Positions 10,426 to 63,562 of a DNA stretch of 64,000 nucleotides are shown here, piece by piece. The position numbers and the translations under genes were made by a program. Position 1 is the stretch's first letter. The number at the start of each line of letters is the position of its first letter. The stretch comes from Pseudobutyrivibrio xylanivorans DSM 14809 (GTDB lineage: Bacteria; Bacillota; Clostridia; Lachnospirales; Lachnospiraceae). The stretch lies in contig NZ_FQYQ01000011.1 in assembly GCF_900141825.1 (NCBI RefSeq), forward strand, positions 1-64,000, written 5' to 3'. The notes under the pieces are model-generated. The model did no database searches. It was given only the letters and a program-made list of their open reading frames with translations, and was not told the origin of the DNA.

Positions 10426-10473
10426 CACCTCATCAGTCAGCTAAAGCTGACAGCTTCCCCTCAAGGGGAAGCC
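10426..10473 (-). repeat. Two-hairpin element, copy 1, carrying the ribosome binding site of the GtrB-like gene
   Basis: On the minus strand the element has a GCTTCCCC/GGGGAAGC hairpin (453-460 with 465-472 after 10000), a GTCAGCT/AGCTGAC hairpin (436-442 with 445-451), and then GATGAGGTG at 10426-10434. GAGGTG is the Shine-Dalgarno of the gene starting at 10420, 5 nt before its ATG. The element fills almost the whole gap between the stop at 10479 and that ATG. Three related copies are in the window (11315-11361, 11896-11942, 63516-63562). It resembles the REP-like palindromic repeats common in gut and rumen Firmicutes. Confidence 0.85.
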
Positions 10474-10478
10474 TCTTT

Positions 10479-11309
10479 CTATCTCCAATTCATTAAAATC
10501 TTGTCTATCTTGCGTGAATCGCCCCATACTGCCTTTGAATCGTATGGACGATCTGGGAATGTACCGTAGGCAAGGCTAATGCTGTAGCCGTTGTCTGTAA
10601 TAAACTTCTCAACACGGTCTGCAAGCTTCATTGGCTTACCTGTGCAGCACTCGATGATACCAAGCACTTCATCCTGCATGCTGGCCTTTGCAACCTGCTC
10701 ACAGAATAAATCATAGTCTGTGAAATCAAACTGATTCTGTCCTGTTGTAAATGGGAATGTCTCATCACCAGCCTCTGCAGCTGCTGTAAGCTTAGAGAAA
10801 ATACTGCAGCCTCTGTGTGTGTTTCCTACTATGTAGTAACCACGTAGCCACTGTAGCTTTACATTGTTCTCTTTACATGCAAGGACCGTAGCCTGTCTGA
10901 GTGCATTCTTTGCAATACCGTAAAGTGACTGTGGAGCACATGGAGTATCTGCCTTAATGCAGCCTTCCATAAATCCAATCTCATGCATCGTGCCCATGAC
11001 ACACATCTTACGGATGCCTGCCTTACACATCTTCTCAATAAAAGAATAGTGATTAGGTAAGTCCTTCATATGATTCTCTGATGCATGCCTAAATCCATCG
11101 CGCCATGCAAGATGGATTACCACATCTGGCTTTTCAAAATAGCCATATGGGTCATCCAAAGTGAAGAGATCAGCATCAATTCTTTTTGCTCTCTCATCTA
11201 CTTCATCTGTATGGAAATCTGTGGCTACAACCTCTGCACCTAAATCAAGCATTGTCTTTACAACGCCCTGGCCGATGTAGCCATTTGCACCTGTTACTAA
11301 GTATTTCAT
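10479..11309 (-). CDS. NAD(P)-dependent sugar epimerase/dehydratase (extended SDR)
   Basis: The 276-aa protein starts with the Rossmann motif TGANGYIG (6-13) and has the SDR catalytic pair Tyr130/Lys134 (SLYGIAK). At 276 residues it is shorter than most nucleotide-sugar epimerases and dehydratases (310-340). The TTG/TAD-type substrate region is reduced, so the reaction (epimerase, reductase or dehydratase) cannot be set from sequence. Its place among glycosyltransferases suggests it makes or reduces a nucleotide sugar for this glycan. Its Shine-Dalgarno comes from the element at 11315-11361, 5 nt before the ATG. Confidence 0.75.
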   Translation of the reverse strand: MKYLVTGANGYIGQGVVKTMLDLGAEVVATDFHTDEVDERAKRIDADLFTLDDPYGYFEKPDVVIHLAWRDGFRHASENHMKDLPNHYSFIEKMCKAGIRKMCVMGTMHEIGFMEGCIKADTPCAPQSLYGIAKNALRQATVLACKENNVKLQWLRGYYIVGNTHRGCSIFSKLTAAAEAGDETFPFTTGQNQFDFTDYDLFCEQVAKASMQDEVLGIIECCTGKPMKLADRVEKFITDNGYSISLAYGTFPDRPYDSKAVWGDSRKIDKILMNWR

Positions 11310-11314
11310 ATTTA

Positions 11315-11361
11315 CACCTCATCCACCGCTATCGCGGTCCCCCTTCCCCTCAAGGGGAAGG
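11315..11361 (-). repeat. Two-hairpin element, copy 2, carrying the ribosome binding site of the SDR gene
   Basis: On the minus strand there is a CCTTCCCC/GGGGAAGG hairpin (11342-11349 with 11354-11361), an ACCGC/GCGGT hairpin (11325-11329 with 11334-11338), and then GATGAGGTG (11315-11323) placed 5 nt before the ATG at 11309. The second stem differs completely in sequence from copy 1 but keeps its pairing. The element abuts the stop codon at 11362. Confidence 0.85.
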
Positions 11362-12438
11362 CTAATTAAAAAGATTATCTATCCATGCGTGGATACTATA
11401 TTTTTGTCTTACTTCTTCATTTTCTAAATAAGGCTTATTCAGCCACTCTTCACCAGGGAGAATAAATTCACTATAATCTCCAGTCTGCTCAGCTTTGTCA
11501 GCCTTTGAAGAAAGGTCCGTAAAGATTAAGTCATTAGTTTCATTATAGAACTCATAGTCACGTAAATATATGTTGTTTGTGACTAGTTTTCTCTTTATTC
11601 CCAATGTTTCCATTGTACGCATTGTCAAGCCCTGCTGCTGTTCATGGGCTAAATCAAGGACAGCCTTGGAGTTCTTCACCATATCTCTGATTTCATCAGG
11701 AGAGAATGGCTCAAAACTGATGATGTCCATATCCAAATCCTTCACGAGCTTTGGATCCTTCAGCTTTTTACCACGATAGACCTTTGGGTCTAAATATATT
11801 TTAAGGCAAAGCTTTTTATCTGGGTTAGCTTTTTTGAAAGCTTTGAAGTAACGATATCGGAATGGGAAGAAAGCAGAGACACTGACATAATCAAACACCT
11901 CATCAGTCTGCTCCGCAGACAGCTTCCCCTCAAGGGGAAGCCTATTGGCATCAAATTCATCCGAATAAAACAAAGGTAAAAGCTTATAATCAAGCTTTGA
12001 TTCCTTTGCATCCACTGAATCAAAAGTGCCTCTCCAATCGAAAAGGCGTCCGATTTCACCTTTATGACGAAGATTCTTAAATGAATCCCATGAATAGTAA
12101 ATAGATTTTCCTGTAGACTTCAGCGCTTTGTTTTTAAGCTCGTGGATAGTCTGCTCTGAAAGAACATTTCCTCTGATTACAAGAAAATAGTCATATCCTT
12201 CTTCTGGCATTTCAGATAAAATCTTATTTTTTAATTTTTTATTGAAGCCATCAAATATCTTCTCATTATGGAAGATATCACCAAGATTTTTTAGAATAAG
12301 GAACTGAGTCTTATCTGGTTCCTCATTGTAAAAATGTGGGTGGGCTCCTCTGCTCTCTAAATCTTCTCTCATCTTAGTTTGATAAGAGTAGAACTGAGGC
12401 ATGATTATTAAAATATTTTTGTCTTTTAAGTCTCTCAT
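11362..12438 (-). CDS. CgeB/GT1-like glycosyltransferase with a repeat-encoded insertion
   Basis: The 358-aa protein is soluble. It starts KNILIIMPQFYSYQ, like a GT-B N-terminal domain. Its C-terminal half (SFEPFSPDEI, KAVLDLAHEQQQGLTMRTME at about 265-284) resembles the nucleotide-binding side of CgeB-like or 'spore-maturation' type glycosyltransferases found in capsule loci. Residues 166-181 (RLPLEGKLSAEQTDEV) are the in-frame translation of a two-hairpin repeat (11896-11942) inserted between the two halves. The insert probably forms a surface loop at the interdomain junction. The ATG overlaps the previous gene by 4 nt (ATGA). Whether the enzyme remains active is unknown. Confidence 0.6.
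   Translation of the reverse strand: MRDLKDKNILIIMPQFYSYQTKMREDLESRGAHPHFYNEEPDKTQFLILKNLGDIFHNEKIFDGFNKKLKNKILSEMPEEGYDYFLVIRGNVLSEQTIHELKNKALKSTGKSIYYSWDSFKNLRHKGEIGRLFDWRGTFDSVDAKESKLDYKLLPLFYSDEFDANRLPLEGKLSAEQTDEVFDYVSVSAFFPFRYRYFKAFKKANPDKKLCLKIYLDPKVYRGKKLKDPKLVKDLDMDIISFEPFSPDEIRDMVKNSKAVLDLAHEQQQGLTMRTMETLGIKRKLVTNNIYLRDYEFYNETNDLIFTDLSSKADKAEQTGDYSEFILPGEEWLNKPYLENEEVRQKYSIHAWIDNLFN
11896..11942 (-). repeat. Two-hairpin element, copy 3, inside a coding sequence
   Basis: The architecture is the same as in copies 1 and 2. It has a GCTTCCCC/GGGGAAGC hairpin (11922-11929 with 11934-11941), a GTCTGC/GCAGAC hairpin (11906-11911 with 11915-11920), and GATGAGGTG at 11896-11904. Here it is read through in frame as part of the glycosyltransferase at 11362-12438. 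It therefore also carries an internal Shine-Dalgarno-like sequence, though no ATG follows at the right distance. Confidence 0.85.
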
Positions 12439-13598
12439 AGTGTATATATTCTTCTTGAAATTACAGCATAGTCGAAGTTCAGGCGGGCGAAAGAGAATGA
12501 TTTTGCCTTAGCCTGCTCCAACACCTGCACATTATCAGTAATATCTGTAAACACCTTTACCATATCATCTTCGTTTTCCACGAAGAAATAGTTTTCAAAG
12601 TTACAGTCAGAGTAGTTCTCGTTAGTGTAATTCTCCATAGGATATGTCATATTCGCACAGCCACAGCACATGGCTGTCTCGAAGGTTACAGAATATCCAC
12701 CAGGCTGACAATACAAATCCACTCCAGCCAGGAACTCTTCTATCTCCTTGTCTACCTTCCATCCCATGAAATGAATTCGTTCATCCTCTTCCATAAGATT
12801 ACGAAGAAGCAAATTCATCTCTTTTGAAATAGTACCAAATATAAAGAGTGCTAACCTAGGATCTCTATTTTTTCGTACCGCATTTATCAATTCTCTTGTT
12901 CGACTTTTTTCGTCAAGTATTTTGGCCGAGTGCGCCATTATGATGGCATCCTGAGGCAGCGCATATTTTTTTATAATTTCTATGCGTGCATCTTTCTGCT
13001 GCTGTGCAGTATATATTGTACCTCCCAGAGCCAAGAATTCCTGTTTTTCAACTGGGATTGCAAATAAATCATTCATCCAATATCGCATATCCTCACCTGT
13101 ATAGAAGAATTTATCTACCTCAGGTGCTGCCTTTGATATGAAATGACCATGTATAAATTTATAGAAATTCTTACTTAAAAAAGTTTTAGCTGAACCGCTG
13201 TAATCAGCGTGACAATCTACAAAAAACAAACAATCTGGATGACTCTTGCAGTAGTCTGCTACAGTCATAATCTCGTATCCGCAGAGCCCATGAAATAAGA
13301 TACTGTCTGGCTGAATCTCCTTAAGGAGTTTCTTCACCTTGTGAGCTTTACGAATTTTTTCCGTCCACAAATCGCTAAAAAAAATCCTATCCCATTTAAG
13401 TCTGATTAAACGGGCTCCACTTTCCAAAATGGTATCTTCCTCTGGTCCCTTTACTAATTCACCATGCTCATAATGGAATACATCTGTGATAATAGTAACC
13501 TCATGACCGTCTGCCATTTGGCAGTTTATCATCTGATTTTCTTGGTACAGCATCCCTTCAGTAAAATGGGACGCAAGCGCTATATGAAGTATTTTCAT
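12435..13598 (-). CDS. GT4-type glycosyltransferase
   Basis: The 387-aa GT-B protein opens with MKILHIALASHFTEGMLYQE, typical of GT4 acceptor domains. The donor half includes FMGWKVDKEIEEFLAGVDLY and the E-x7-E-like stretch SVTFETAMCCGCANMTY (about 315-331). The second glutamate of the classical motif is not evident, as in several capsule GT4 branches. It would add a sugar to the lipid-linked intermediate. It overlaps the next gene by 4 nt, and 6 nt separate it from the upstream sugar transferase gene, so it may act just after chain initiation. Confidence 0.75.
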   Translation of the reverse strand: MKILHIALASHFTEGMLYQENQMINCQMADGHEVTIITDVFHYEHGELVKGPEEDTILESGARLIRLKWDRIFFSDLWTEKIRKAHKVKKLLKEIQPDSILFHGLCGYEIMTVADYCKSHPDCLFFVDCHADYSGSAKTFLSKNFYKFIHGHFISKAAPEVDKFFYTGEDMRYWMNDLFAIPVEKQEFLALGGTIYTAQQQKDARIEIIKKYALPQDAIIMAHSAKILDEKSRTRELINAVRKNRDPRLALFIFGTISKEMNLLLRNLMEEDERIHFMGWKVDKEIEEFLAGVDLYCQPGGYSVTFETAMCCGCANMTYPMENYTNENYSDCNFENYFFVENEDDMVKVFTDITDNVQVLEQAKAKSFSFARLNFDYAVISRRIYTL

Positions 13599-13604
13599 TA
13601 GTGA

Positions 13605-14978
13605 TTACTCATCTCCATTATCCTTCTGCTGTTCAAGTGAAGCTAAAATTTCGTCAGCAGACACCACTTTATCAAAGCCTTCTGTGCTTTCCTTCTTGAA
13701 AAGAATTCTGATTGTCATAAGCACAAGCTTTACATCTAATAAAAATGTGTAGTTCTCGATGTACATCAAATCAAGCTTAATCTTATCGTAAGCTGATGTA
13801 TTATACTTTCCGTAAATCTGAGCAAAACCAGTAAGGCCGCCCTTTACCTTGCTACGGAATTCAAACTCAGGTATTGCCGCTGTGTATTTCTCCACGTGCT
13901 CTGTACGTTCTGGACGTGGACCTACTATCGACATATCTCCCTTTATAATATTAAACAACTGTGGAAGCTCATCTACTCGTGTAGCACGAATAACATGTCC
14001 CACCTTTGTGATTCTATCATCGTCATCTGTGGCTGGACGTTGCTCAGCATCCTCTACCATACTTCTGAATTTAAGGATGTCAAAAATCTTTCCATCCTTT
14101 GTAACTCTTGCCTGCTTATAAAATACAGGTCCATGGTCCTCGAGCTTTATCGCAATTGCGATAATAAGCATCAGCGGTGAAAGAACTACTGCTGCAATAA
14201 CGCAAAGTATCACATCGAAGAATCTCTTAACAAGCTCCTGCTCAGGTGTAAGACCTGTAGTGTTAATCATAACAAGAGGAGTATCAAACTGATGAATATC
14301 CTCTCCACCGCCAATGATTACGTCTGAAATCTTAGGTGTAATATATGTCTGAATCTCATGCATGTAGCAGTACTTTAAAAGATCATTTCTATCCTCAGCA
14401 CTTACATCAGAAATTACAATTCCATCATAGTTTTCAAGCTCTTTGAATATGTTCTCAAGTCCCTCATCTACACTAATGATTTTCTTGATGTTATAACTAT
14501 CTTCTCTGGTGTCCATCTTTAACTTCAGGGATACTGATTCCTTGTTTCCATATACCATCAGAAGCTTGCTGGCATTTGAAAAACGATTGTAGATTGCAAA
14601 AAATATAAAAACAAATACTCCAGATATTACAAAATCTGTAAGGGTAAGACCAACCATTGGTCCTACTGGAATCATTACGTTAGCCATCAAGGAAAGCTGC
14701 AAATATGTAACTACATTTACAATGCATATAGCAATCCATTGTGAGAAAAGTACATCTGCTATTCTGAGTATTCCATATTTAAACCCTTCACATAAATGTA
14801 TGATTACAAGGTTCAATATGAAATAAACGCCCATAAAGACGTACTTTCCACGACCCCACATAGGATGAAAATAATCCCAGTTAAAAATGTAGGTCCAGTA
14901 AAAATATAGGTACACTAATGTCAGTACTACCAACTCTATGAAGCTTTCAATTTTTCTAACAGTATTCTTATTTTTCAC
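13605..14978 (-). CDS. Undecaprenyl-phosphate sugar phosphotransferase (polyprenyl glycosylphosphotransferase), first copy
   Basis: The 457-aa protein has about five N-terminal membrane segments (about 15-145), a Rossmann-like middle domain (about 150-240), a membrane re-entry (about 250-270) and a C-terminal bacterial sugar-transferase domain. The last shows KQARVTKDGKIFDILKFRSM, DELPQLFNIIKGDMSIVGPR and LTGFAQIYGKYNTSAYDK. It transfers a sugar-1-phosphate from a nucleotide sugar to undecaprenyl phosphate, starting glycan assembly (WbaP/CpsE/EpsL type). It shares one base with the preceding GT2 gene. A paralogue of almost the same size is at 36107-37492. Confidence 0.9.
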   Translation of the reverse strand: MKNKNTVRKIESFIELVVLTLVYLYFYWTYIFNWDYFHPMWGRGKYVFMGVYFILNLVIIHLCEGFKYGILRIADVLFSQWIAICIVNVVTYLQLSLMANVMIPVGPMVGLTLTDFVISGVFVFIFFAIYNRFSNASKLLMVYGNKESVSLKLKMDTREDSYNIKKIISVDEGLENIFKELENYDGIVISDVSAEDRNDLLKYCYMHEIQTYITPKISDVIIGGGEDIHQFDTPLVMINTTGLTPEQELVKRFFDVILCVIAAVVLSPLMLIIAIAIKLEDHGPVFYKQARVTKDGKIFDILKFRSMVEDAEQRPATDDDDRITKVGHVIRATRVDELPQLFNIIKGDMSIVGPRPERTEHVEKYTAAIPEFEFRSKVKGGLTGFAQIYGKYNTSAYDKIKLDLMYIENYTFLLDVKLVLMTIRILFKKESTEGFDKVVSADEILASLEQQKDNGDE

Positions 14979-15919
14979 TAGTCTTGCTCCTTGATGTATT
15001 TATCCCTCACTATGTACTGGGGAGAATTGTTATTATTAAGGAAATTTCTTCCAACATATTCCCCAAGCATTCCAAGCATTAACATCTGTACTCCCGAAAG
15101 AATAAGGATGGTGGCTATTAATGATGTCCATCCAGCGACATCACCATAAATCAACGTCTTAATTATGATTACAATTGCCAATAAAAATCCCAGAATGGTC
15201 GCAACAACACCAAGCACTGATGTAATTCTAAGTGGCTTTATTGAAAAGGATATAACTCCATCAAACCACAGTCCTACTAATTTTCTAAGAGTATAAGTAC
15301 TCTCGCCAACCTCTCTAGCCTTATGCTCTACATACACATTTGCCATATTATCTGTAGCTCGAAGCATAAGTCCCCAAATATAAGGATAAGCTCCCTGATA
15401 TTTTATCATTTGATCTCGCACAAATGATGTGATTACAAAATAGCTGTTTAACTCTATATCCTTTGGCTTCCCAATTAAAGTAGTTGCTATGTAACCATTT
15501 AAATTATGACCAAACTTTTTAAAGGCAGAATCCTTCTTCTCATGATATTTTGCAAAAACTATATCATAACCTTTTTCTATTTCCTCTAGTAATTTATGAG
15601 CTTCGCAAGGAGGATTTTGTCCATCATCATCTAATGCTACAATATAATCTCCTGTTGCATGAGTGAAGCCACACATTGTAGCTCCATCCTGTCCGAAGTT
15701 TCGTGACAAGTTGATAACAACCACTCGACTATCCTGATCAGCTAAAGATTTCAATACATTATAAGTATTGTCCTTAGAACCATCATTTACCAAAACTATC
15801 TCAATATTGTAATCTTCCCTAGGAAATTCAGTAAATATATCTCTTACAACATCTGAGACTGTATCCTGTGAATAATAACAAGGTATTACAAATGAAATCT
15901 TTTTTTCAATCTTAAGCAT
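14978..15919 (-). CDS. GtrB/DPM1-type polyprenyl-phosphate glycosyltransferase (GT2), second copy
   Basis: I start the protein at the ATG at 15919 (MLKIEKKISFVIPCYYS, 313 aa) because GGAG lies 6 nt before it; a TTG four codons upstream is less likely. The GT2 domain has VIPCYYSQD, LVNDGSKDN and the DxD-type ALDDDGQNPP, and is followed by two C-terminal membrane helices. It should charge polyprenyl phosphate with a hexose for a GT-C enzyme. The natural candidate is the membrane protein whose gene ends 14 nt upstream (15934-17391). It overlaps the sugar transferase gene by one base. Confidence 0.85.
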   Translation of the reverse strand: MLKIEKKISFVIPCYYSQDTVSDVVRDIFTEFPREDYNIEIVLVNDGSKDNTYNVLKSLADQDSRVVVINLSRNFGQDGATMCGFTHATGDYIVALDDDGQNPPCEAHKLLEEIEKGYDIVFAKYHEKKDSAFKKFGHNLNGYIATTLIGKPKDIELNSYFVITSFVRDQMIKYQGAYPYIWGLMLRATDNMANVYVEHKAREVGESTYTLRKLVGLWFDGVISFSIKPLRITSVLGVVATILGFLLAIVIIIKTLIYGDVAGWTSLIATILILSGVQMLMLGMLGEYVGRNFLNNNNSPQYIVRDKYIKEQD

Positions 15920-15933
15920 TTTACACTCCAACT

Positions 15934-17391
15934 TTATCTAATCTTATACATATTAGTTGTTCCATATGTAGCAACCAATTCACATCTTTCTGCTAAAAAA
16001 TCATCTAAATCTCCACCTGCTCTATACGCTATGTATTTACTATTTAGCTCATCAAAATGCTCGCGAACATAATCATCTATACAACAGTTGATTCCAAATC
16101 CTGATGGGATTGCATATAAGTCGTTGAAATATGTTATTCGAGTAAAAATTACTGTATTATCCCACTCATTATCTCCAAGCTTCATTACCTCGTCTAATTT
16201 TGTTTGTCCATCTTCAAGAGCTGCTATCTGATTAGCATCCTCAGGTATAAGCCTCATGTAGAACTCTTCTTTACATAGCCAAGTTGTATAAAGAAAAACA
16301 ACAACACAAATTCCAATTATTATTTTTTTATTTTCATATAATGGCAAAAACATAGCCAACACTAATATGGCTGCCATGAAATGTCTACAGCCTTCTTCTG
16401 GTCTATATAATGTCCACATCGCAAACAAAAGTCCAAGCCACGCAAGAAGTAAAGAATAATTTACAATATCTTTGTTTATCACACACCTATATATTAAGTA
16501 AATAATAGAGAGGAAATATAAAAGGTACCATGATCCTTTCATCGATTGCATTAAAATACATTGTTTTATGTATTTTAAACTCTCAATCAAACATATCAGA
16601 TTCTTCTTAACTAATGCTTTTGGATTAATCAAAGTATCAATTGCTATATCCGGTGTAAAATATGCTGCAAACATAAAGTGGGCGATACAAACAAATCCAA
16701 TAGCTGCTACTAAAGCAACTATTAACTGACTCCAAAAATTTACATCAATTTTTTTATTTTCTTTATATATGGCTGCCATTAGAATAACGGCAAATATCAC
16801 ATAATAACCTCTAATTAATGTCAACCAAACCAAAGAAAAATCCGCTAATATTAACCAAGTTTTGTTGTTTTGATTTCTAATAAAACTAATACAACCAATC
16901 GCATAAATCAAAAATAAAACATTAACCAAGGCTTCTGGAGTTGCTGAAAGCATATATCTAATATTAATTGCAAAGCTCAACCATACTGCACTTACAATCA
17001 ACATTTGTTTTACAGTCGGTTTAAGTCCAATAGCAAATAATCCTAATCCAAACATCCATAAAACGATATTAATAATGATTGGAGTCATATAATTCCAACC
17101 GAAGATTCTACCAATAAATGCATATGGTAGAAGCATGGCTACACTCCAACCACCCAAATTTCCTATAATTGCATGACTTTCATTGTATCCAAAATATCCT
17201 TGTGGTATTCCATAATCAACCATGCCTTGAATCATCTTGTAATAATAAAATTCATCATTCCAGTCTGTACAAGGAACAGATATTTCATTAAATCCAACTC
17301 CCCATACCATCATATATATATACAGCCCTACTAGTGGTGTTAATAGAGCAATTAGTAATACCGGAATATATTTTTTTTGTGGAAATTCCAT
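15934..17391 (-). CDS. Polytopic membrane protein, GT-C-like glycosyltransferase candidate
   Basis: The 485-aa protein has about 11 hydrophobic segments. The loop after the first one contains CTDWNDEFYYY (Asp43, Asp46, Glu47), the kind of acidic first extracytoplasmic loop that forms the GT-C active site. A C-terminal polar part (about 395-485) is probably outside the cell. I do not recognise a named family. The adjacent GtrB-like gene supports a role as the transferase that uses the polyprenyl-phosphate sugar. The gene is more AT-rich than its neighbours. Function is inference. Confidence 0.5.
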   Translation of the reverse strand: MEFPQKKYIPVLLIALLTPLVGLYIYMMVWGVGFNEISVPCTDWNDEFYYYKMIQGMVDYGIPQGYFGYNESHAIIGNLGGWSVAMLLPYAFIGRIFGWNYMTPIIINIVLWMFGLGLFAIGLKPTVKQMLIVSAVWLSFAINIRYMLSATPEALVNVLFLIYAIGCISFIRNQNNKTWLILADFSLVWLTLIRGYYVIFAVILMAAIYKENKKIDVNFWSQLIVALVAAIGFVCIAHFMFAAYFTPDIAIDTLINPKALVKKNLICLIESLKYIKQCILMQSMKGSWYLLYFLSIIYLIYRCVINKDIVNYSLLLAWLGLLFAMWTLYRPEEGCRHFMAAILVLAMFLPLYENKKIIIGICVVVFLYTTWLCKEEFYMRLIPEDANQIAALEDGQTKLDEVMKLGDNEWDNTVIFTRITYFNDLYAIPSGFGINCCIDDYVREHFDELNSKYIAYRAGGDLDDFLAERCELVATYGTTNMYKIR

Positions 17392-18651
17392 CTAGCCTTC
17401 CTCCGAGTTATTATTCAAAAAAGTATAGATTAATAAATATGTATAATAAGGTGTCATATACTTAAAGAACATATCAAGTCCTAAGTCCATAAATAATATG
17501 GATACTAAAAGCGAAATGCATACTATTTTAGCTTCTTTACTATGCACCTTGATTGTATCGATAATTAGTTTTACTGGGAACCAGTAGTACATAACAAATC
17601 CAAATATTCCAAAGCTAAACAGCAATTCCATAAAGTTCATATGAGTTTGGATATGTCTGTACATTATCTCTGTGCCCTCTCTGTATTCTTCCAGCTGAGA
17701 ATAAGGCATAGTGATAAATGAATAGAAACCATGACCAAATAAAGGACTCTCCCAAAAGTGTTTTTTGAAAGCATCCATTACGGCCATTCTTTGACCTGTA
17801 CTTGTATGTAAATCAAATTCAGTATTTCCAAAAGCTGTAAATACTTCTACTATACGTTTTCCCAAAATGTCATAAAGCATAGGTATAGTCAGTACTAAAA
17901 CTGTAGCTACTACTCCTAATCCCACTAAAATAGCTACATACTTTTTAACATCCTTGGCATTCTTTGCAGTGCCTAATAACATAATTGCTATAACAAGCAC
18001 AAGTGGAACAAATGAAGATTTTGATCCCGCCAAAACTATTCCAATTATACCAGCTAATGCTGGAATAATATTAGGCTTAACCTTACGTAAAACTATAACT
18101 GAATAGAGTATTGGAATAAGCATTAATAAATACAGATTTCCTGTATCAATATCTGTTCCTCCTGGAACGGCACCCACTCTATAGAACTCTCCATGCATCA
18201 TATCCCCCCATAAATGGTCGTACTTTATAGAGGTGATGTATGTAGCAAAAATTACTAGTGCACCAACAGGCGATAATACTTCAAACATATTATCTCTATT
18301 GTGCCATACTATCTCATAACACAAGAGTGCTGGTAACACAGTAAGAATTGTATACTGAACACTATAGTAATCAGTAGGTGTAAACAACTTGAAATGTCCA
18401 TATACAAACTGAACCACTTGGAACAATATCAACCACAATATAGCTAAGTTAAAAATACTCTTCTTTGTCTTTTGAAAATCGTCCTTTGTAAGAATAAGGC
18501 AGTAAACAAATCCGATAGCCTGAACCACAAGATTCATTGCCACAGCATAGCTTTTTGTTACGCCATAATCGCATCTAATATAAAGAATTAAGGCAAGTAA
18601 GATTATTGAGATAATCTTTTTATTCTTCCTAATGAACTCCATTATTATCAA
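17392..18651 (-). CDS. O-antigen polymerase/ligase family membrane protein (Wzy/WaaL-like)
   Basis: The 419-aa protein has about 11 membrane segments. GSKSSFVPLVLVIAIML (mid-protein) is followed by a long extracytoplasmic loop with TGQRMAVMDAF and SPLFGHGFYSF, then HIQTHMNFMELLFSFGIFGF. This is the pattern of the Wzy_C/O-antigen ligase domain, in which conserved Arg and His residues in the large loop take part in glycan transfer. In a Gram-positive cluster with a Wzx-like flippase (32498-33862) it most likely polymerises flipped repeat units. It is directly adjacent to 15934-17391. Confidence 0.82.
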   Translation of the reverse strand: MIIMEFIRKNKKIISIILLALILYIRCDYGVTKSYAVAMNLVVQAIGFVYCLILTKDDFQKTKKSIFNLAILWLILFQVVQFVYGHFKLFTPTDYYSVQYTILTVLPALLCYEIVWHNRDNMFEVLSPVGALVIFATYITSIKYDHLWGDMMHGEFYRVGAVPGGTDIDTGNLYLLMLIPILYSVIVLRKVKPNIIPALAGIIGIVLAGSKSSFVPLVLVIAIMLLGTAKNAKDVKKYVAILVGLGVVATVLVLTIPMLYDILGKRIVEVFTAFGNTEFDLHTSTGQRMAVMDAFKKHFWESPLFGHGFYSFITMPYSQLEEYREGTEIMYRHIQTHMNFMELLFSFGIFGFVMYYWFPVKLIIDTIKVHSKEAKIVCISLLVSILFMDLGLDMFFKYMTPYYTYLLIYTFLNNNSEEG

Positions 18652-18660
18652 GTCTCCTAA

Positions 18661-52321: not shown

Positions 52322-52409
52322 TTTATTATCTAAGGCTTGAGAGCGTAACCAACTTTTTCTATTTCTATATCTAGCGTAATTGTCTGAAAATATTACAGAA
52401 TCTAGTATG

Positions 52410-52438: not shown

Positions 52439-52529
52439 GATAGTAGCTATAAGTATCGATATCTATGTCCCGGCTTAGGCAAAGGATTGTCGAAGGTTAT
52501 TTTATCAAGGAAGAAAGGAGGGACGTCTC

Positions 52530-53804: not shown

Positions 53805-53843
53805 AAAGGGGCGTTCACTTCACATCGGAACGGCCCCTTTTTA
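53804..53843. terminator. Bidirectional terminator between the FliD-like and GH120 genes
   Basis: The stem AAAAGGGGC-GTTC / GAAC-GGCCCCTTTT (with one bulged base) encloses an 11-nt loop. T runs follow on both strands. The two genes converge on it: the plus-strand stop is at 53802-53804 and the minus-strand stop at 53864. Confidence 0.88.
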
Positions 53844-53863
53844 TTACTTTTATTTTATTGTTT

Positions 53864-55876: not shown

Positions 55877-55914
55877 AAAATTATTTCCCTCTTTCTTATA
55901 ATGTCATTTATGAT

Positions 55915-56775
55915 CTAGCCCTTAACCGCACCTGCCATCATACCCTTTACAAGCTTGTCCTGGAAAACGATGAACAGGATTATCATAGGTAAAACTGAAA
56001 GTGTCAAAACAGCAAGTATGATTGGAATATCCAGCGCATGCTCGCCCTTGAACTGTCCTAAAGCAAGCGGCAATGTCTTGTGGGACGCTGTCTGAAGAAG
56101 TGTATTGGCAAAAGCAAATTCATTCCATGTAGCAACACCATTGTATATTGCCAATGTAGATAGTCCCGGCTTTGAAAGAGGCAAAATAATACTGAAGAAA
56201 TTACGGAAGCGGCCGCATCCATCAATCTCAGCCGACTCCTCCAACTCCTTAGGAATAGTCATCATAAATGCTGTCAAAATAAATACCGACATAGGCAACG
56301 CAAATGTAACATATGGTCCAATCAACGAGAATAAATTATCGTAAAGTCCCATATCTGTAGTCAATTTGAATACTGGAATAAGTGTAACGTGCATAGGTAC
56401 TGACATCAGCGCCACAATACCAGCATAAATAATCCCACGAAAGCGGAACTTCATTCTAGCAAGTGGGTATGCTGCAAATGCTGAAATCAAAAGCATAAGC
56501 ACCAGTGAAATCGCCACTACAATCACACTTCTAAAAAAGTATCCAAAGAATCCATGGGTTACAACTTCAACGTAGTTTAGAAAGTACCATGGATCAGGAA
56601 GATGAAAAACTCCCTGCTGAAGCATATCAAACTGTTTACGGAAGGAATTCAATACCATAAACACAAATGGTGTTAGTGTGAGAACCAACCAAAAACATGC
56701 CATTATGATTGCAATTGTCCATGCTATTACTGATTTTCTTTTTTCTTTTTTGTAATCAACTGTCTTAGTCTGCAT
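55915..56775 (-). CDS. Sugar ABC transporter permease (MalG/AraQ type)
   Basis: The 286-aa protein has six membrane segments and the EAA-loop motif ELEESAEIDGCGRFRNFFSI (about 190-209), which docks the ATPase. It ends in the MalG-type FQDKLVKGMMAGAVKG. It forms the channel with the permease encoded 1 nt upstream. Its ATPase is not encoded here; as in many Firmicutes a shared MsmK-type ATPase probably serves. The likely substrate is xylo-oligosaccharide, judged from the GH120 gene below. Confidence 0.92.
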   Translation of the reverse strand: MQTKTVDYKKEKRKSVIAWTIAIIMACFWLVLTLTPFVFMVLNSFRKQFDMLQQGVFHLPDPWYFLNYVEVVTHGFFGYFFRSVIVVAISLVLMLLISAFAAYPLARMKFRFRGIIYAGIVALMSVPMHVTLIPVFKLTTDMGLYDNLFSLIGPYVTFALPMSVFILTAFMMTIPKELEESAEIDGCGRFRNFFSIILPLSKPGLSTLAIYNGVATWNEFAFANTLLQTASHKTLPLALGQFKGEHALDIPIILAVLTLSVLPMIILFIVFQDKLVKGMMAGAVKG

Positions 56776-56776
56776 A

Positions 56777-57694
56777 TCAGTAATCCTCCTTAACTACGAA
56801 TACCTTTTGGAATAATAGCGCAATGACTGTAATCAAAATAAACATTCCTGCAGCCACGCAAGAACCATAGCCCATATTAAACTGCTGGAATGACAGCTTA
56901 TACATATAGGTTGCCATCAACTCTGTTGAATTGACAGGACCTCCCTGAGTTAAATTCCAAATCAAATCGAAGTACTTGAGTGAACCAATAAGCGACATTG
57001 TGCAAGCTGTCTTAAAGATAGGTCCAAGTAATGGTATTGCAATCAGTCTCACATACTGACCTCTTGTAGCTCCATCGATAATTGCTGCCTCATAAATAGT
57101 GGTATCAATATTTCCGTAACCTGCCATAAAATAAACCATATAGAACGGTGTATACTGCCATGCCATTACACCAATTACAGCAAATAGTGCATGTGGCGAT
57201 CTTCCCAATAAATCTATGGTAACCTTTGTCCCCTTGATAATAGAGGCAAGGGAAGAAAATATACCACCGTTAGTAGCCAGTGCATATGTAAACAAAAACG
57301 CTATCGCTACTGAGCTCATAAGATATGGTAAGAACCATATGATTTTGAATGCATTGAACTTCTTACCACCTGCATCCAGGAAGGTTGCAAGCAACATTCC
57401 TATAGGAATCTGAAGCATGATGGAAAACACCATAATGATTATGTTATGCTCGAAAGCATCCCAAAAATTCTTATCATGTATCAGCGTTTTCCAATTTTCC
57501 AATCCTACAAAGGTACGTGCTGATGAAATTCCGTTCCATTTATAGGCACTAATAACGAAAGTATCAATAATTGGATAAATAAAATAGATTGCGATTAACA
57601 AAAATGCAGGAAGAAGGAAAACGCCTGCCGCCACTGCAGTCTTCTTTCTCTTCACATTTGCAAGACTAGTATTACTCTCATTTTTCAAAGCCAT
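56777..57694 (-). CDS. Sugar ABC transporter permease (MalF/UgpA type)
   Basis: The 305-aa protein has six membrane segments (the first at about 18-40, FLLPAFLLIAIYFIYPII) and the EAA motif IYEAAIIDGATRGQYVRLIA (about 205-224). It is the first permease of the binding-protein-dependent importer and precedes its partner by 1 nt. CAGGAGGAT lies directly before the ATG. A strong hairpin in the 88-nt gap after the binding-protein gene may lower its expression relative to that gene. Confidence 0.92.
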   Translation of the reverse strand: MALKNESNTSLANVKRKKTAVAAGVFLLPAFLLIAIYFIYPIIDTFVISAYKWNGISSARTFVGLENWKTLIHDKNFWDAFEHNIIIMVFSIMLQIPIGMLLATFLDAGGKKFNAFKIIWFLPYLMSSVAIAFLFTYALATNGGIFSSLASIIKGTKVTIDLLGRSPHALFAVIGVMAWQYTPFYMVYFMAGYGNIDTTIYEAAIIDGATRGQYVRLIAIPLLGPIFKTACTMSLIGSLKYFDLIWNLTQGGPVNSTELMATYMYKLSFQQFNMGYGSCVAAGMFILITVIALLFQKVFVVKEDY

Positions 57695-57712
57695 ATCCTC
57701 CTGTATCTAAAA

Positions 57713-57743
57713 ACTGTCTGCCAACTTATGGCTGGCAGACAGT
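57713..57743 (-). terminator. Strong intercistronic hairpin (partial terminator) between binding-protein and permease genes
   Basis: A perfect 11-bp stem (57713-57723 with 57733-57743) and a 9-nt loop are followed on the minus strand by TTTTTAGA. It lies in the 88-nt gap between the binding-protein stop (57783) and the permease ATG (57694). In ABC sugar operons such hairpins commonly give more binding protein than permease, by partial termination or by protecting the upstream mRNA. Confidence 0.75.
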
Positions 57744-57782
57744 CATTCTCATGCCTGTTTATGTGGCAAGGCATTTTCATTT

Positions 57783-59177
57783 CTATTGTTCTTCAATAGC
57801 TGCTTTCATTGCTGCATCCTGGTCTGCTCCTATTTCAGCGCCATTCTTTTCAAGTCCAAATAGAGCTGACATGCTGTTCTTGTGTACTTCAGTAACTGAA
57901 GCTGGAAGATACTGATCATACCAAAGCTGAACATTTGATGCCTGGAAGAATACATCTGTGATTATCTTCATGTTAGGATCTGTAACCTGATTCTCAAATC
58001 CTTTGATTGAAGGAGTCTGGAAGCTATCCATCTGCATCTGATTGTATGTATCATCGTTGTAATACTGTGTAGCAAGAACATACATTGCCTCAAGCTTAGC
58101 CTGATCACCCTTGCTGTTGAAGTTGAAGCAGTTACCAATAGCTGTACCAATTTCTACATCCTGTGGAACGCCCTTAGCCTTAGCTTCTGAATCTTCTGGG
58201 AAGCGGAATACACCGATATTTTCCTGATACCACTCTGCATTATCAGATGACATGCTTCCTGCCATCCATGAACCATGTAACATCATTGCGCAGCTGCCAT
58301 CATAAAGTAACTGTTTGTCCTGTCCATCATCTGGAGAAAGTGAGTTAACACCATCTGGGAAATATCCCTTCTTTACCCAATCCTGAATCTTATCACTTGC
58401 AAAAAGGAATGCCTCTGAACCAAATGAACCTTCCTGTGTATAAGCAGCATCAAACTCATCATTTCCAGAATGACGTGCTACAAGGTACATATAGTACATA
58501 GAGCCTGTCCACTTTGCTGAGTTTGCTAAAGCAAATGGAGTAATACCATTTTCTTTAAGCTTTGCACATACATCCTCAAGCTCATCTATAGTTTCTGGAA
58601 CCTCAAGACCTAAGTCCTTAAAGATTGTCTTGTTATAGAAAATATCGCAACCTGAAAGGCTTCCGAATGGAATTCCAAGAATCTTATCTTTGTACGATCC
58701 CTGTGCAATAGCTGCATCAATAAAATCAGGATGATCATATTTGTTGTATAAATCTGTGATATCATCTGCAAAGCCTGACTTATAATACTCAGCCATTGGA
58801 CCACCGCCCCATGATACGTACATATCAGGACACTGACCGGAACTCATGGCAACAACAAGCTGCTGCTTATAGTTATCATTCTGCTGATGAACCTGCTCAA
58901 CATGAATATTTGGATAATCCTTCATAAAGCGCGCAACTGCAGCTTCCTGTGTAGGTCTGCCTGGCTCTTCTGTAGCAATATCCCACAATGTAATTGTCAT
59001 CTCTTCTGTTGTAAGTTCTGGAAGATTCTTTCCATCTGTCTGCTTTCCTGTAGTGGATTCATCTGGACCTGTAGCAGGTACCTCTGCTGAATCAATTGAG
59101 GCACTGCTTCCACAACCAACAAGTGTTGTAACAGTTAATACTGCTACAGATAAAACTGCCAAGATTCTGTTTTTCAT
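57783..59177 (-). CDS. Sugar ABC transporter substrate-binding lipoprotein (xylo-oligosaccharide candidate)
   Basis: The 464-aa protein has a lipoprotein signal with lipobox TLVGCGSS (Cys22) and the family 1 solute-binding pattern: MTITLWDIATEEPGRPTQEA, FMKDYPNIHVEQVHQQNDNY, QLLYDGSCAMMLHGSWMAGS and a Trp-rich C-terminal part. It would capture an oligosaccharide outside the membrane and hand it to the two permeases. GGAGGG lies about 6 nt before the ATG. Substrate assignment rests on the adjacent GH120 and AraC genes. Confidence 0.9.
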   Translation of the reverse strand: MKNRILAVLSVAVLTVTTLVGCGSSASIDSAEVPATGPDESTTGKQTDGKNLPELTTEEMTITLWDIATEEPGRPTQEAAVARFMKDYPNIHVEQVHQQNDNYKQQLVVAMSSGQCPDMYVSWGGGPMAEYYKSGFADDITDLYNKYDHPDFIDAAIAQGSYKDKILGIPFGSLSGCDIFYNKTIFKDLGLEVPETIDELEDVCAKLKENGITPFALANSAKWTGSMYYMYLVARHSGNDEFDAAYTQEGSFGSEAFLFASDKIQDWVKKGYFPDGVNSLSPDDGQDKQLLYDGSCAMMLHGSWMAGSMSSDNAEWYQENIGVFRFPEDSEAKAKGVPQDVEIGTAIGNCFNFNSKGDQAKLEAMYVLATQYYNDDTYNQMQMDSFQTPSIKGFENQVTDPNMKIITDVFFQASNVQLWYDQYLPASVTEVHKNSMSALFGLEKNGAEIGADQDAAMKAAIEEQ

Positions 59178-59490
59178 ACAATACCCTCCTCCTTCGACTA
59201 TAAGTTGTACGTTTTCTGACAGTATTCACGTTCCTGAAACATTGATATGTTTCTCTTAAATATAAATGTATAATGATTATTGCTTTTCCGCCAATAAATA
59301 ATTGCTACTTACCCTACAAAAATTGCTATTATTGACTAACTATTCTTCTAATGTTCATATATTTTACACACTTCTTCGTCATAATGCTGTCAATTTGTGT
59401 TGTTTAACCACTCTATTATGTTATAATGTCTATAATTATCAGGCGAGAATATAGCAATTTTCGTCATTTATTAAGGGAGAGTTTTTACAT
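59178..59490. promoter_or_regulatory. Divergent control region between the xylo-oligosaccharide operon and its AraC regulator
   Basis: This 313-nt gap has no gene. For the plus strand, TTGTTT (59400-59405) and TATAAT (59422-59427) with a 16-nt spacer lead to the regulator. For the minus strand, TTGGCG (59289-59294) and TATACA (59267-59272), spacer 16, lead to the binding-protein gene. A perfect 7-bp inverted repeat with a 4-nt loop (59236-59253, GAAACAT/ATGTTTC) lies just downstream of the minus promoter. The AraC-type protein probably binds between the promoters. Half-sites cannot be set by eye. Confidence 0.6.
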
Positions 59491-60477
59491 ATGAGAAGTG
59501 ATTTAGTATTAGCGGCTAGCGCAAAGGAATTGGTACAGCACAAAATAAATACCAATCTACGAATGTTTATAAATCGCTTGCATGCAGATTTTCCGCCTCA
59601 CTGGCATACAGACATAGAAATCATATGGCCAAAGGATGCTCCATACAAAGTAGTTTGTTCTTCGCAAACCTATAATGTGGATATAGATGATATTCTACTA
59701 ATCTGTCCTGCTGTGCTTCACGAGATATTTTCGCCGACTCCTGGCTCCAGAGTATATATCCAGGCTGATTTTTCTGGAATTAATTCCCTTAAAGAAATTG
59801 AGAAAGCCTTCAATCTGATGGCACCTGCTATTCACATAAAGAAAAGCACCTGCCCTACAGAAATATATGACCAGGTATGTAAATATTTAGAAATGATTAT
59901 GGAGCTCTATTTCGGTAAAGATCCATCAATTTATACAACTGATAACGAAGAGGATGACAGCGTTATCGCATATACGGAACTAGATCCATATGATGAGTTG
60001 GAGATTTACTCCATACTGTTGAAATTAATCTCCTTCTGTGCCAAAAACATTAACCTTTTTAAGGAGACAGATTACGTATCCAACACCACATATAAGAACG
60101 CTATCTCCCTCAGTAATGTTTGCACTTATATTTCTGAACACTTCACAGAGAACCTGACTCTTGAAAGTGTCTCTACATATGCAGGCTTTAGCAAATATCA
60201 TTTTGAACGAATATTTACTGATTATACAGGGACCACCTTTTATCAATACCTGCAACAAATACGGGTAAATTATGCCCAAACTCTTCTGTCAAACCCTGAG
60301 CTGTCAATTACAGATATATCCTTCCAATCTGGCTTTGCCAGCAGTACTGCATTTACCCGTGCCTTCAAAAAAAGCACTGGTTACACACCTTCTCAGTTCA
60401 GAATGTTTAACGAAACCCAGCATCCACTACCAATTAATTTTTACGAGCAGGGAAAAGGGTATCTAGAATCTCATTAA
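59491..60477 (+). CDS. AraC-family transcriptional regulator of the xylo-oligosaccharide operon
   Basis: The 328-aa protein has an N-terminal cupin-like sensing domain (FPPHWHTDIEIIWP near 31-44, ILLICPAVLHEIF) and a C-terminal AraC domain with two helix-turn-helix units: LTLESVSTYAGFSKYHFERI and LSITDISFQSGFASSTAFTR, then FKKSTGYTPSQFR. A roughly 25-residue acidic loop (DNEEDDS) lies between them. It likely senses a xylan-derived sugar and activates the divergent operon. AAGGGAGA stands about 10 nt before the ATG. Its 3' end overlaps the convergent gene at 60434 by 44 nt. Confidence 0.9.
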   Translation: MRSDLVLAASAKELVQHKINTNLRMFINRLHADFPPHWHTDIEIIWPKDAPYKVVCSSQTYNVDIDDILLICPAVLHEIFSPTPGSRVYIQADFSGINSLKEIEKAFNLMAPAIHIKKSTCPTEIYDQVCKYLEMIMELYFGKDPSIYTTDNEEDDSVIAYTELDPYDELEIYSILLKLISFCAKNINLFKETDYVSNTTYKNAISLSNVCTYISEHFTENLTLESVSTYAGFSKYHFERIFTDYTGTTFYQYLQQIRVNYAQTLLSNPELSITDISFQSGFASSTAFTRAFKKSTGYTPSQFRMFNETQHPLPINFYEQGKGYLESH

Positions 60478-61606
60478 TTCTTGCTTCGTAAGAGCAGTGC
60501 GCCTTAACATACTCATATCCAGCTCGGGCAATCTGCTCTCTTTCAGCATCATGGCACAGGTAGTAATCCACTTTTTCAAAAAGGTCTCTTTGATTGTAGT
60601 ACCATACCATGTGCTTCTCGTTTTCAAAAAACATAGGAAGTTCTGCCTGAAAGTTTGTAATGCAGAAACCTCCTGCCCCCAGAATATCGTATACACGAAG
60701 TGGAACTCCACTTTTGATGTTTGGAATTGTCATATTCAGGTTGATTTTGGATTCACGAAATACCTTAGGCATTTCCTCCCAATAGTCCACGCTTCCCCTG
60801 TAGTTTACTCTTATTAAATCATGTACATTGGAATTAGTGTAGATGCTTACATCATGGTGCTTTGATAATTCTATTAATATACTTCTTCGCTGCTTTTCAG
60901 CAATCTTAAATCCAAGGGTCGTCACAGAAAAAATCAAATTCAAATCTGACAGAGAATCCTCAGACTTTTCAAGCTCGAAATACTGCTGCAACTCCATGAG
61001 AATTTCAGGCGTAAGCATTCTGTCTATGATGTTGATTCCCTGCAAATCCTTCTGTGCTTCCATGGTTGCTTCAAAGTATCCCCTAAGGTAATCCGGCAAC
61101 GTAAACTCCATTTTATCGTAGGAATTTTTCTCATAGAGAGAGCCCACAAAGCTTATCTCATTTTTGTATAAATCAAGGCCTGTAGCATTTGTAAAAAGAT
61201 AATCCAAGCGCTGCGTATCCACAGCCAGCGGAAGGTGATAGATATGGTCTGCCCCCATTCCTTTGAACTCTTCAACATTAGTTAAATCGAATAAAAAGAT
61301 TCGGTTAACATCATTGAAAACAGATTTATGGTACATGGAAATCAGCGGATTATCGCAGCTCCAGCATACATAAAGTAAACCCAGTTCCTGACACACATTG
61401 GATATCAGTGGAAAGTAATTTACTGTGAAGAAAAATTCATATACGTCTTTACGAATTATGCCTTTTAGCTTTTCTGCAAACTCTTCATCCACATCATAAT
61501 TGAGGAGGTCCTGATAGACCTCCTCCACTTCATACCCAAACTTTATGAAGGTATACTTTATATCTTTGTAGTTATACGCCTTCCAGCGGTACATTAAAAT
61601 TTTCAT
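60434..61606 (-). CDS. CgeB/DUF3880-like glycosyltransferase
   Basis: I start at the ATG at 61606 (MKILMYRWKAYNYKDI, 390 aa) with GGTGG 8 nt before it; a GTG four codons upstream overlaps that site. The N-terminal half has the DUF3880 look (VYEFFFTVNYFPLISNVCQE, LLYVCWSCDNPLISMYHKSV, NRIFLFD). The C-terminal half is a GT1-like domain with INLNMTIPNIKSGVPLRVYD, ILGAGGFCITNFQAELPMFF. Such proteins occur with flagellar or surface glycosylation genes in Lachnospiraceae. It converges on the AraC gene and overlaps it by 44 nt. Confidence 0.75.
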   Translation of the reverse strand: MKILMYRWKAYNYKDIKYTFIKFGYEVEEVYQDLLNYDVDEEFAEKLKGIIRKDVYEFFFTVNYFPLISNVCQELGLLYVCWSCDNPLISMYHKSVFNDVNRIFLFDLTNVEEFKGMGADHIYHLPLAVDTQRLDYLFTNATGLDLYKNEISFVGSLYEKNSYDKMEFTLPDYLRGYFEATMEAQKDLQGINIIDRMLTPEILMELQQYFELEKSEDSLSDLNLIFSVTTLGFKIAEKQRRSILIELSKHHDVSIYTNSNVHDLIRVNYRGSVDYWEEMPKVFRESKINLNMTIPNIKSGVPLRVYDILGAGGFCITNFQAELPMFFENEKHMVWYYNQRDLFEKVDYYLCHDAEREQIARAGYEYVKAHCSYEARINEILDTLFPARKN

Positions 61607-61643
61607 ACTTTGCGCCACCAGTTACACTAACAAGCATAATGAT

Positions 61644-63509
61644 TTATACGTGAAGCGTTTCTACTCCATATGTATTCTTAATCGCCATGATAAGCTCTTG
61701 GTACGTTGCGACGGCCTCGTCCACCTGCCCTGCTTCATCCAGCTCTGCAATCTGGCGAAGGATAGCATCTTCAAGGTTGTACATTTCCTGGAATTTGACT
61801 GGATCTTTGGCTCGCAATGCATCTAGCATCTGCTTTCTACCGTACATGTCCGCAAGCTCACCTATTGCTGCGTTCATAATTGGTCGTCTTCCAATCATAT
61901 CCTTAATGTATGATAATGCCTTTGGAATGTCCGTACCTTCACACTCGATGAAATCGTTTATATCACATGCCAGCTTGGTTTCCTGTGCCAATGTGAATGA
62001 AGGATTTTCTGATGGAAACATTAAATCGTGCACCTTTTGCCACTTTACAGCCAGCTGTGCATATGCTTCCAAAATATCTGTAAGCTGTTTGAAGTTATCC
62101 CAGTTTTCTATGCATGATATCTGATACTCCAGGATTCTTACATCCATGTAAAGGTTCATTTCCTTCTCACCTTCTGTTGTCTTGAAGGCATTCTTTATGT
62201 TCTGCAGTCCTTCCTCATCAAATTCTCTTGTAGCCTCATCAATCAACTTTTCAAGTAGATTTCTGAAGCCTTCGCTGGAGAAGAATTTATTCAAAACATC
62301 TCTGATTTCTTTTTTATATCCAACCTTAGCTGCCTCTGCTATAAGAGTCATGACAAAGCCACGATTAAGTCTGACCACCTTTGCATTCCATGAGATTCTT
62401 CTGTAATAATGAACCATAGGGCCATAGTCGCCTTTTCTCAGGCCACAGGTCATAGCATAGCAGTACATCAGGTTCATATTTGTCTCATTGAAGGTATCGT
62501 TGGAGAAAATACCGCCCTGAATAAACATAAGTCCTCGGTCATTGCCCACCTTCTCATATACGTCAAAGTAATATTTAATCTCCGCCTCACACTTATCGTT
62601 CTCATCTCTGATGAAATATATTTTCGATGCATAGAATGCAATCTTCGCCATAGGAAGCGGATACAGGTTCTTCTTCTCCTGGACTTCCTTATAGAATGCC
62701 AACAGCTCATCCAGCATTTCAAGCCTAGCCATAGCAATAACAATGCCACAAGCAAAACTACCGCGGTATTTCTTATCTACCTCATCTGCCGAATCGGCTA
62801 TCTTGTTATAGGTTTCCGTACAAAGATCTAAAAGCTCTTTGTTATATTTGATAGCCTTATACTCCTGTGCCAGCTGATATGGCCAGCGCAGCTCCTTTGG
62901 CTCCTCCTCCATCATCTCAATCAATAGCGGTATATTTCTGAGAGAATGTTTTACATTCTCCTCCTCAGACTCATACACGTATCCAAAATGCCCAGCTCTG
63001 GCGTCCATAAACATTGTGTTTCCACAGCCTGGATATATATACTCATGGATTTTTCCTTTGAAGCATACGTCAGGATCCACGCGGCACATTCTCATAACCT
63101 CGATGTCCTCGTACTCCTTACCTTCAAAATCCAGATAGTTTCTCTGGAAATACCCTCCCACGTTATAGGAGGTACATCTAGGGTCCTGGAAAAATTCGAT
63201 GATATACTTTGTATCAAGGAACCACTCGTCATCATCTATATACAAGAACATCTTTCCATTGGCCTGGTCCAACTGGAAATTTCTGGCTGCTGCAAAATCC
63301 TTTACCCATGTAAATTCAAAGATTTCATCAGCATATTTTTCAATAATCTTCCTTGTTTCCTTTGAGCATCCAGTATCAACAACCTGAATCTCTGAGTCGA
63401 TAGCCTCACGAATAGGCATCAAAGATTTAAGGCAGCGCTCTGTTGTATCAGGTCTGCCACAGCATAATAAAGAAATTGTAAGTAATTTGGTTTTAGGCTT
63501 GTTGTTCAT
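61644..63509 (-). CDS. GT2 glycosyltransferase fused to a long helical (TPR-like) domain
   Basis: I start at the ATG at 63509 (MNNKPKTKLLTISLLCCGRP, 621 aa). Its GAGGTG Shine-Dalgarno is 6 nt upstream and is supplied by the element at 63516-63562; translation from further upstream would include that repeat. The GT2 domain (residues about 8-230) has IQVVDTGCSKETRKIIEKYA, DFAAARNFQLDQANGKMFLY and the DxD motif YIDDDEWF. The rest is a helical repeat region. This design is common near flagellin genes and in surface glycosylation of Firmicutes. The substrate is unknown. Confidence 0.8.
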   Translation of the reverse strand: MNNKPKTKLLTISLLCCGRPDTTERCLKSLMPIREAIDSEIQVVDTGCSKETRKIIEKYADEIFEFTWVKDFAAARNFQLDQANGKMFLYIDDDEWFLDTKYIIEFFQDPRCTSYNVGGYFQRNYLDFEGKEYEDIEVMRMCRVDPDVCFKGKIHEYIYPGCGNTMFMDARAGHFGYVYESEEENVKHSLRNIPLLIEMMEEEPKELRWPYQLAQEYKAIKYNKELLDLCTETYNKIADSADEVDKKYRGSFACGIVIAMARLEMLDELLAFYKEVQEKKNLYPLPMAKIAFYASKIYFIRDENDKCEAEIKYYFDVYEKVGNDRGLMFIQGGIFSNDTFNETNMNLMYCYAMTCGLRKGDYGPMVHYYRRISWNAKVVRLNRGFVMTLIAEAAKVGYKKEIRDVLNKFFSSEGFRNLLEKLIDEATREFDEEGLQNIKNAFKTTEGEKEMNLYMDVRILEYQISCIENWDNFKQLTDILEAYAQLAVKWQKVHDLMFPSENPSFTLAQETKLACDINDFIECEGTDIPKALSYIKDMIGRRPIMNAAIGELADMYGRKQMLDALRAKDPVKFQEMYNLEDAILRQIAELDEAGQVDEAVATYQELIMAIKNTYGVETLHV

Positions 63510-63515
63510 TTTTTC

Positions 63516-63562
63516 CACCTCATCACCCTTAAAGTGATAAAGGCTCGTCTTGTGACGAGCCT
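63516..63562 (-). repeat. Two-hairpin element, copy 4 (divergent), carrying the ribosome binding site of the GT2-TPR gene
   Basis: On the minus strand a perfect AGGCTCGTC/GACGAGCCT hairpin (63541-63549 with 63554-63562) is followed by an ATCAC/GTGAT hairpin (63522-63526 with 63534-63538) and GATGAGGTG (63516-63524). The GAGGTG is 6 nt before the ATG at 63509. Both stems differ in sequence from copies 1-3, while the layout and the Shine-Dalgarno end are the same. Confidence 0.75.

Follow-up and report, generated by a model that had tools for sequence, protein, structure and literature searches.

Can a repeat that inserts between genes supply the Shine-Dalgarno (SD) sequence of the gene behind it? 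The question is raised by the first 64,000 nucleotides of contig NZ_FQYQ01000011.1 of Pseudobutyrivibrio xylanivorans DSM 14809 (the window, labelled G000:C26:1-64000, part of the 3.42-Mb draft genome G000), in which a sequence-only reading had singled out three intergenic gaps that each hold two hairpins followed by GATGAGGTG a few bases before an ATG. Two of these gaps carry members of a large repeat family, and copies within the genus are biased in orientation and distance toward start codons. The best explanation, which we consider probable, is that this palindromic repeat is mobile and that its SD-like tail, by providing or restoring an SD, allows insertions close to a start codon to be tolerated.

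We began with the gaps themselves. GATGAGGTG occurs four times in the window, at 10426, 11315, 11896 and 63516, always on the minus strand (shuffles lead one to expect 0.47 occurrences), and 78 times in the whole genome compared with 20 for the reversed control. At 10426, 11315 and 63516 it stands 5, 5 and 6 nt before an ATG, and all three gaps fold into two hairpins with z of -4.7, -3.1 and -5.0, values equalled by 0/200 shuffles. The coordinates and spacings in the sequence-only reading were correct. That reading had also assigned the three gaps to one design; the two-hairpin fold is common to all of them, but family membership extends to 10426 and 11315 and not to 63516, which the family model does not match.

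The model, a covariance model of 46 positions called R1, was built on 11 copies from the same genome, including the window copies at 10426, 11315 and 11896. We scored 150 candidates per genome and counted a palindrome again when it matched on the opposite strand as well. At E<=0.01, R1 found 36 matches in G000 at 33 places, since three of the 36 are such second readings, and it found 1, 0, 36, 0, 17, 69, 0, 61, 7, 30, 53 and 0 matches in twelve congeners. One locus of the congener G009 matches a P. ruminis MAG contig at 76.7% over 2078 nt, in line with Pseudobutyrivibrio as the probable genus. The idea of a repeat family was thereby borne out, with up to 69 matches in a congener and further matches in GTDB genomes, where an exact pattern scan returned at least 119 stretches. 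The GTDB matches listed fall in Lachnospiraceae, Oscillospiraceae, Ruminococcus, Eubacterium, Selenomonas and Bifidobacterium, and include named strains of B. vansinderenii, B. callimiconis and B. simiarum. Judged by these sequence matches, the element is a cross-phylum short repeat. It is shared very widely among gut and rumen bacteria, and we found no name for it in the literature searched.

Each element consists of hairpin 1, hairpin 2 and the unpaired constant tail GATGAGGTG, about 45 nt in total. Hairpin 2 occurs as 106 distinct segments, every one of which has a stem by a mismatch-tolerant finder; there are 69 distinct stems, and 249/269 inner pairs are Watson-Crick. The stems vary yet keep pairing, as had been proposed. 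Copies also cluster in a characteristic way: among 190 loosely defined copies in the GTDB loci listed, neighbours within 120 bp form 42 inverted pairs, of which 14 are head to head and the other 28 tail to tail, and a single direct pair. Examples of neighbouring copies are found at L162 143-271, L177 3295-3401 and L115 1749-1866. Separately, exact hairpin 1 with tail is seen in Actinomycetota in Bifidobacterium (L128, L130, L154, L167, L188, L217, L223) and in Negativicutes in Selenomonas ruminantium (L145, L166, L187, L225). Some copies are composite, with a second palindrome of at least two kinds nested inside hairpin 1 (L054 1501-1586, L053 1501-1591, L052 1501-1590, L003, L005, L011, L061, L062), and similar pieces occur in congeners.

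We then examined where the tail lies relative to start codons. Starts were assigned by script as the first ATG that opens a reading frame (ORF) of 60 amino acids or more, or a GTG/TTG that opens one of 150 or more; copies outside the script pattern, such as L056 (8 nt), were omitted, and the ORF rule dropped L005 (6 nt, 52 amino acids). Relatives' copies were R1 matches of about 40 bits and up in genomes G003, G005, G006, G008, G009, G010 and G011. One pattern yielded 149 distinct copies in the genus, of which 91 have a GAGGTG tail. A start codon lies 2-8 nt past this tail in 26/91 copies (12/29 in the own genome, 14/62 in relatives), most often at 5 nt among these close copies, while at the hairpin-1 end a start at 2-9 nt was seen in 1/91. 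The remaining GAGGTG copies have a start at 10-39 nt (21 copies), at 40-59 nt (5) or none (39). Consistent with the expectation that only close copies need the tail, a further SD-like word intervenes between the element and the start in 18 of the 21 copies at 10-39 nt. Binomial p values were 4e-7 for 26 versus 1 and 3e-7 for 2-9 versus 10-39 nt under a uniform null, which is crude. In a separate listing of 35 own-genome copies, 14 have a start at 2-8 nt; these include exoIII (start codon GTG), hisF and flgL, names that we assume from the protein starts. The tail is also a plausible SD on energetic grounds, GAUGAGGUG being predicted to pair with the assumed anti-SD at -8.9 kcal/mol (GGAGG -8.7, AGGAG -5.7, AAGGAGG -10.1).

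Orthologous gaps in genomes without the element indicate what the insertions changed. For the gene at 9470-10420 (the 10420 gene), G003 reads GAATTGGAGATAGT-ATG, G005 reads GAACTGGAGATAAAC-ATG and G009 is similar; all three have no element and a GGAG that overlaps the stop codon, and GAGGT is present in 1/18 empty gaps. In G000 the element separates this GGAG from the ATG, and the GAGGTG there is new. At exoIII the closest relatives, G009 and G005, have GAGGACAAATTAATG and no GAGGTG, and in G000 the element is present with the start GTG 4 nt behind it; G027 carries a copy with a different hairpin 2 at the same place. As read from these alignments, the new SDs in the 10420 gap and at exoIII relative to the closest relatives support SD supply by the element. 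At hisF, where GAGGT is found in 4/18 empty gaps, the tail is the sole SD in G000, G005 and G030, and G027 and six others carry the element plus a retained native SD. The gene at 10479-11309 (the 11309 gene) reads TTTGAGGTATAAATATG in G003 and GATGAGGTGTAAATATG in G000; its empty sites in G003, G005, G010 and G021 read GAGGTATAAA, and 5/16 empty gaps have GAGGT. The word is present in 24/24 empty gaps for flgL and in 11/21 for the gene whose product starts MKRGEIVQ (AGGT in 15/21). From these comparisons an SD was therefore supplied in some genes and already present in others. The proposal that insertion replaces the native ribosome-binding site is accordingly supported for the 10420 gene but not, as stated, for flgL and the 11309 gene: orthologues that lack the element have the same SD throughout for flgL and in part for the 11309 gene. 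This is, in part, the outcome that the sequence-only reading had named as refuting its proposal. A comparison of an 8-kb region with five close congeners gave mostly filled sites.

On the explanation that we favor, the non-coding element would spread by some machinery and insert for the most part in intergenic DNA. Selection would as a rule remove an insertion directly upstream of a start codon, because it moves the SD away from the start; in the right orientation, however, the tail would restore an SD at workable spacing, and such insertions would therefore survive. Selection of this kind could account for the bias in the genus. The tail would replace a displaced native SD in some genes and rebuild a pre-existing AGGT or GAGGT SD in others. 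The SD role looks more like a side effect that allows insertions to be tolerated than like a regulatory device. This would be a concrete route by which a selfish repeat enters the short space separating a native SD from its start codon, persists, and rewires translation start signals; hisF, exoIII, flgL and other genes in this genome now begin right behind the repeat.

Several findings weigh against this explanation. Short operon gaps favor small distances by themselves, and several of the 26 start-proximal copies are orthologous between species. For flgL, GAGGT is native in every relative with an empty gap, and for the MKRGEIVQ and 11309 genes it is native in part of them. The anti-SD was assumed, the draft genome giving 0 matches to a 16S 3' end. 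Among the GTDB matches listed, selected by a stricter pattern that requires an exact hairpin 1 and leaves out 18 copies near contig ends, a start lies 2-9 nt from the tail in 5/125 copies and from the other end in 3/125; the bias is absent or weak there, and that of the genus is therefore not general. (At least two Pseudobutyrivibrio contigs are included, so this is a broad set and not one confined to other genera.) The proposal that the tail serves as an SD is thus upheld within the genus but not as a general rule. Finally, relatives' copies with the tail GATGAGGG, a weaker SD, have a start at 2-9 nt in 6 cases and at 10-39 nt in 9, a placement not significantly different from that of GAGGTG-tailed copies (Fisher p=0.38), and the importance of the tail's TG is therefore unsupported.

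The bias could instead reflect target choice and not only selection. In this alternative the element targets SD cores: it would insert at AG^GTG (or GAG^GT), where the GATGAG at its own end would restore the SD. One filled/empty pair aligns free of gaps, G003 reading CTAGATTAG|GTGTATATG and G000 CTAGACTAG[element]GTGTAATG, a pattern that points to insertion at AG^GTG by an element ending in GATGAG, though only as a suggestion. Similarly, among genus copies with an exact hairpin 1 the left flank ends in AG in 63/73 and the right side is GTG in 72/73. Among genes with the element in at least one genome of the genus, a native AGGT SD is also commoner in the relatives without it (7 genes versus 5, Mann-Whitney p=0.004, a post hoc test with values typed by hand, one same-gene repeat left out, and exoIII and the MAYFTRN gene moved to the element-bearing side). 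Counted by cells, which are not independent, AGGT is present in 49/97 for element-bearing genes and 23/116 for the others, eleven rows with doubtful starts being left out. However, the closest relatives lack AGGT at the exoIII and 10420 sites, and at the gap-free site the congeners G005, G010 and G011 are without GGTG, so that G003 may be an excision scar. A target-duplication search over 346 copies with flanks gave candidate empty sites for 34, and one pair was free of gaps, the others being shifted; moreover, most of the GTDB-set copies listed are not in front of genes. The evidence for targeting of AG^GTG is suggestive, and we regard this alternative as unlikely. If it were true, the repeat could spread through the start signals of operon genes in different phyla and leave those genes unsilenced.

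A second possibility is that the tail has no SD role and coincides with GAGGT as a common native SD word of the genus, the elements merely adjoining native SDs. The native GAGGT in empty gaps of flgL, the MKRGEIVQ gene and the 11309 gene is what this would predict. Yet GATGAGGTG stays constant even where a copy is remote from any start or lies inside a gene, and is therefore part of the repeat or of an obligate target. The 10420 and exoIII gaps, without GAGGTG in the closest relatives, argue in the same direction. In the window, apart from the three GATGAGGTG starts, GAGGT was scored for only 1 of 51 ORFs and GGAGG for 9. We judge this possibility to be quite improbable.

The sequence-only reading had also suggested that the element could regulate translation, and we found no support for this. 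By our reading of the predicted folds, hairpins 1 and 2 each close on themselves in 21/25 leaders, and two of the other four carry the nested second palindrome. Predicted SD access averaged 0.41 with the element body and 0.39 without it. Masking of the SD by the hairpins was rejected on these values, which fit an insulated SD and not a switch. Counts of G-U versus A-C pairs, across the GTDB set and the genus, gave no support for selection at the RNA level. A dedicated cis-regulatory RNA whose two hairpins control SD access is thus hardly credible: the conserved two-hairpin design directly before the SD, its variable but paired stems and the 13:2 excess of G-U over A-C in the GTDB set listed speak for it, but the same ratio is 5:5 and 0:1 in the genus, the element also occupies places that are not ribosome-binding sites and the inside of a gene, the genes downstream of it share no relation by name, predicted SD access does not change when it is removed, and no Rfam family matches at gathering score in the window or in five further loci. 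The best sub-threshold Rfam match on an element was RF01687 Acido-Lenti-1 (24.4 bits against a cut-off of 37; window 11342-11375, + strand), a resemblance that is probably due to chance.

Returning to the mobile repeat, its organization is closest to known repetitive extragenic palindromic (REP) elements and REPINs. REP elements carry an unpaired GTAG or CGTC motif (PMC3733652), and our element shares with them the short palindrome, the unpaired constant motif at one end, the many copies, the mostly intergenic location, the inverted neighbours and the occasional copy in a gene. It differs in its tag, GATGAGGTG (CACCTCATC on the other strand), and in having two hairpins. No SD role appears in the abstract of that paper, and its text does not mention Clostridia, Firmicutes or any of four gut genera looked for by name. 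As in REPINs, REP-like units form inverted doublets. Unlike with REPINs, the genome has no gene for a REP-associated tyrosine transposase (RAYT; Y1_Tnp, PF01797): PF01797 was absent at E<=1e-4 from G000, G005 and G008, which have 36, 17 and 61 R1 matches, and it showed no evident relation to copy number. Mobilisation by a RAYT within G000 was rejected accordingly. Miniature inverted-repeat transposable elements (MITEs) such as ERIC are likewise small non-autonomous repeats that can alter the neighbouring mRNA and for which orientation matters (PMC2229807, PMC10969869); the effect described there is on mRNA stability, with no SD supply in the passages concerned, and the words 'ribosom' and 'Shine-Dalgarno' are absent from PMC10969869. 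Of MITE features, our element has no terminal inverted repeat by eye, and a 2-nt AG duplication is possible, from the one gap-free pair only. Rickettsia palindromic elements resemble it in being tolerated in-frame in a gene, as at 11896, but they are about 150 bp and half of them lie in ORFs (PMC10969869). Overall, a REP/REPIN-like mobile palindromic repeat appears to be the best description, its mobility being part of the explanation that we consider probable. Neither this repeat nor any SD-supplying repeat turned up in the open-licence literature searched, including the available portions of PMC8040213 and PMC2267715, which is weak evidence of absence; six stretches of the repeat, used as queries, led to 24 papers, none of them about bacterial repeats to judge by title.

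Features of the window discussed in the text, all in coordinates of the 64,000-nt stretch.
Feature	Position	Strand	Details
Family member upstream of gene 9470-10420	10426-10472	minus	R1 64.2 bits; tail 5 nt before ATG
Parts of the 10426 copy	hairpin 1 10453-10472; hairpin 2 10436-10451; tail GATGAGGTG 10426-10434	minus	
Family member upstream of gene 10479-11309	11315-11361	minus	R1 62.7 bits; tail 5 nt before ATG
Parts of the 11315 copy	hairpin 1 11342-11361; hairpin 2 11325-11338; tail 11315-11323	minus	
Family member within ORF 11362-12438, in-frame, reads RLPLEGKLSAEQTDEV	11896-11941	minus	R1 67.1 bits
Gene whose SD, by position, is the tail of the 10426 copy	9470-10420	minus	protein start MKPTLYIVIPCYN...
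Gene downstream of the 11315 copy	10479-11309	minus	protein start MKYLVTGANGYIG...
Hairpin 1 of the third gap, terminator-like, outside the family	63540-63563	minus	upstream of MNNKPK gene
GATGAGGTG, SD by position; family origin an unproven candidate	63516-63524	minus	6 nt before ATG at 63509

The third gap stands apart. R1 gave no match at 63516 at E<=0.01, nor at E<=0.1 genome-wide, and the first hairpin is conserved at the gap itself across the genus, so we rejected this site as a family member. The hairpin (AAGGCTCGTC...GACGAGCC) was identified by eye in 21/22 genomes with a script-located gene start, the 22nd being cut by the view; its shared form across the genus is GGCTCGTC...GACG(A/G)GCC, and it is present in relatives both with and without a following GATGAGGTG. 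GATGAGGT lies near the position of 63516 in G003, G010, G027 and G030 and is absent from most other genomes.

At the first locus, the 10420 gene presumably encodes a glycosyltransferase-like protein and the 11309 gene an NAD-dependent epimerase-like protein. The copy at 11896 is a full copy that lengthens a loop of the encoded protein, and this loop is shorter in most relatives. A scan for intrinsic terminators over 10200-12200 called no element hairpin on the gene strand. On the other (+) strand, only the hairpin at 10453-10472 was called terminator-like, with a T-rich stretch after it.

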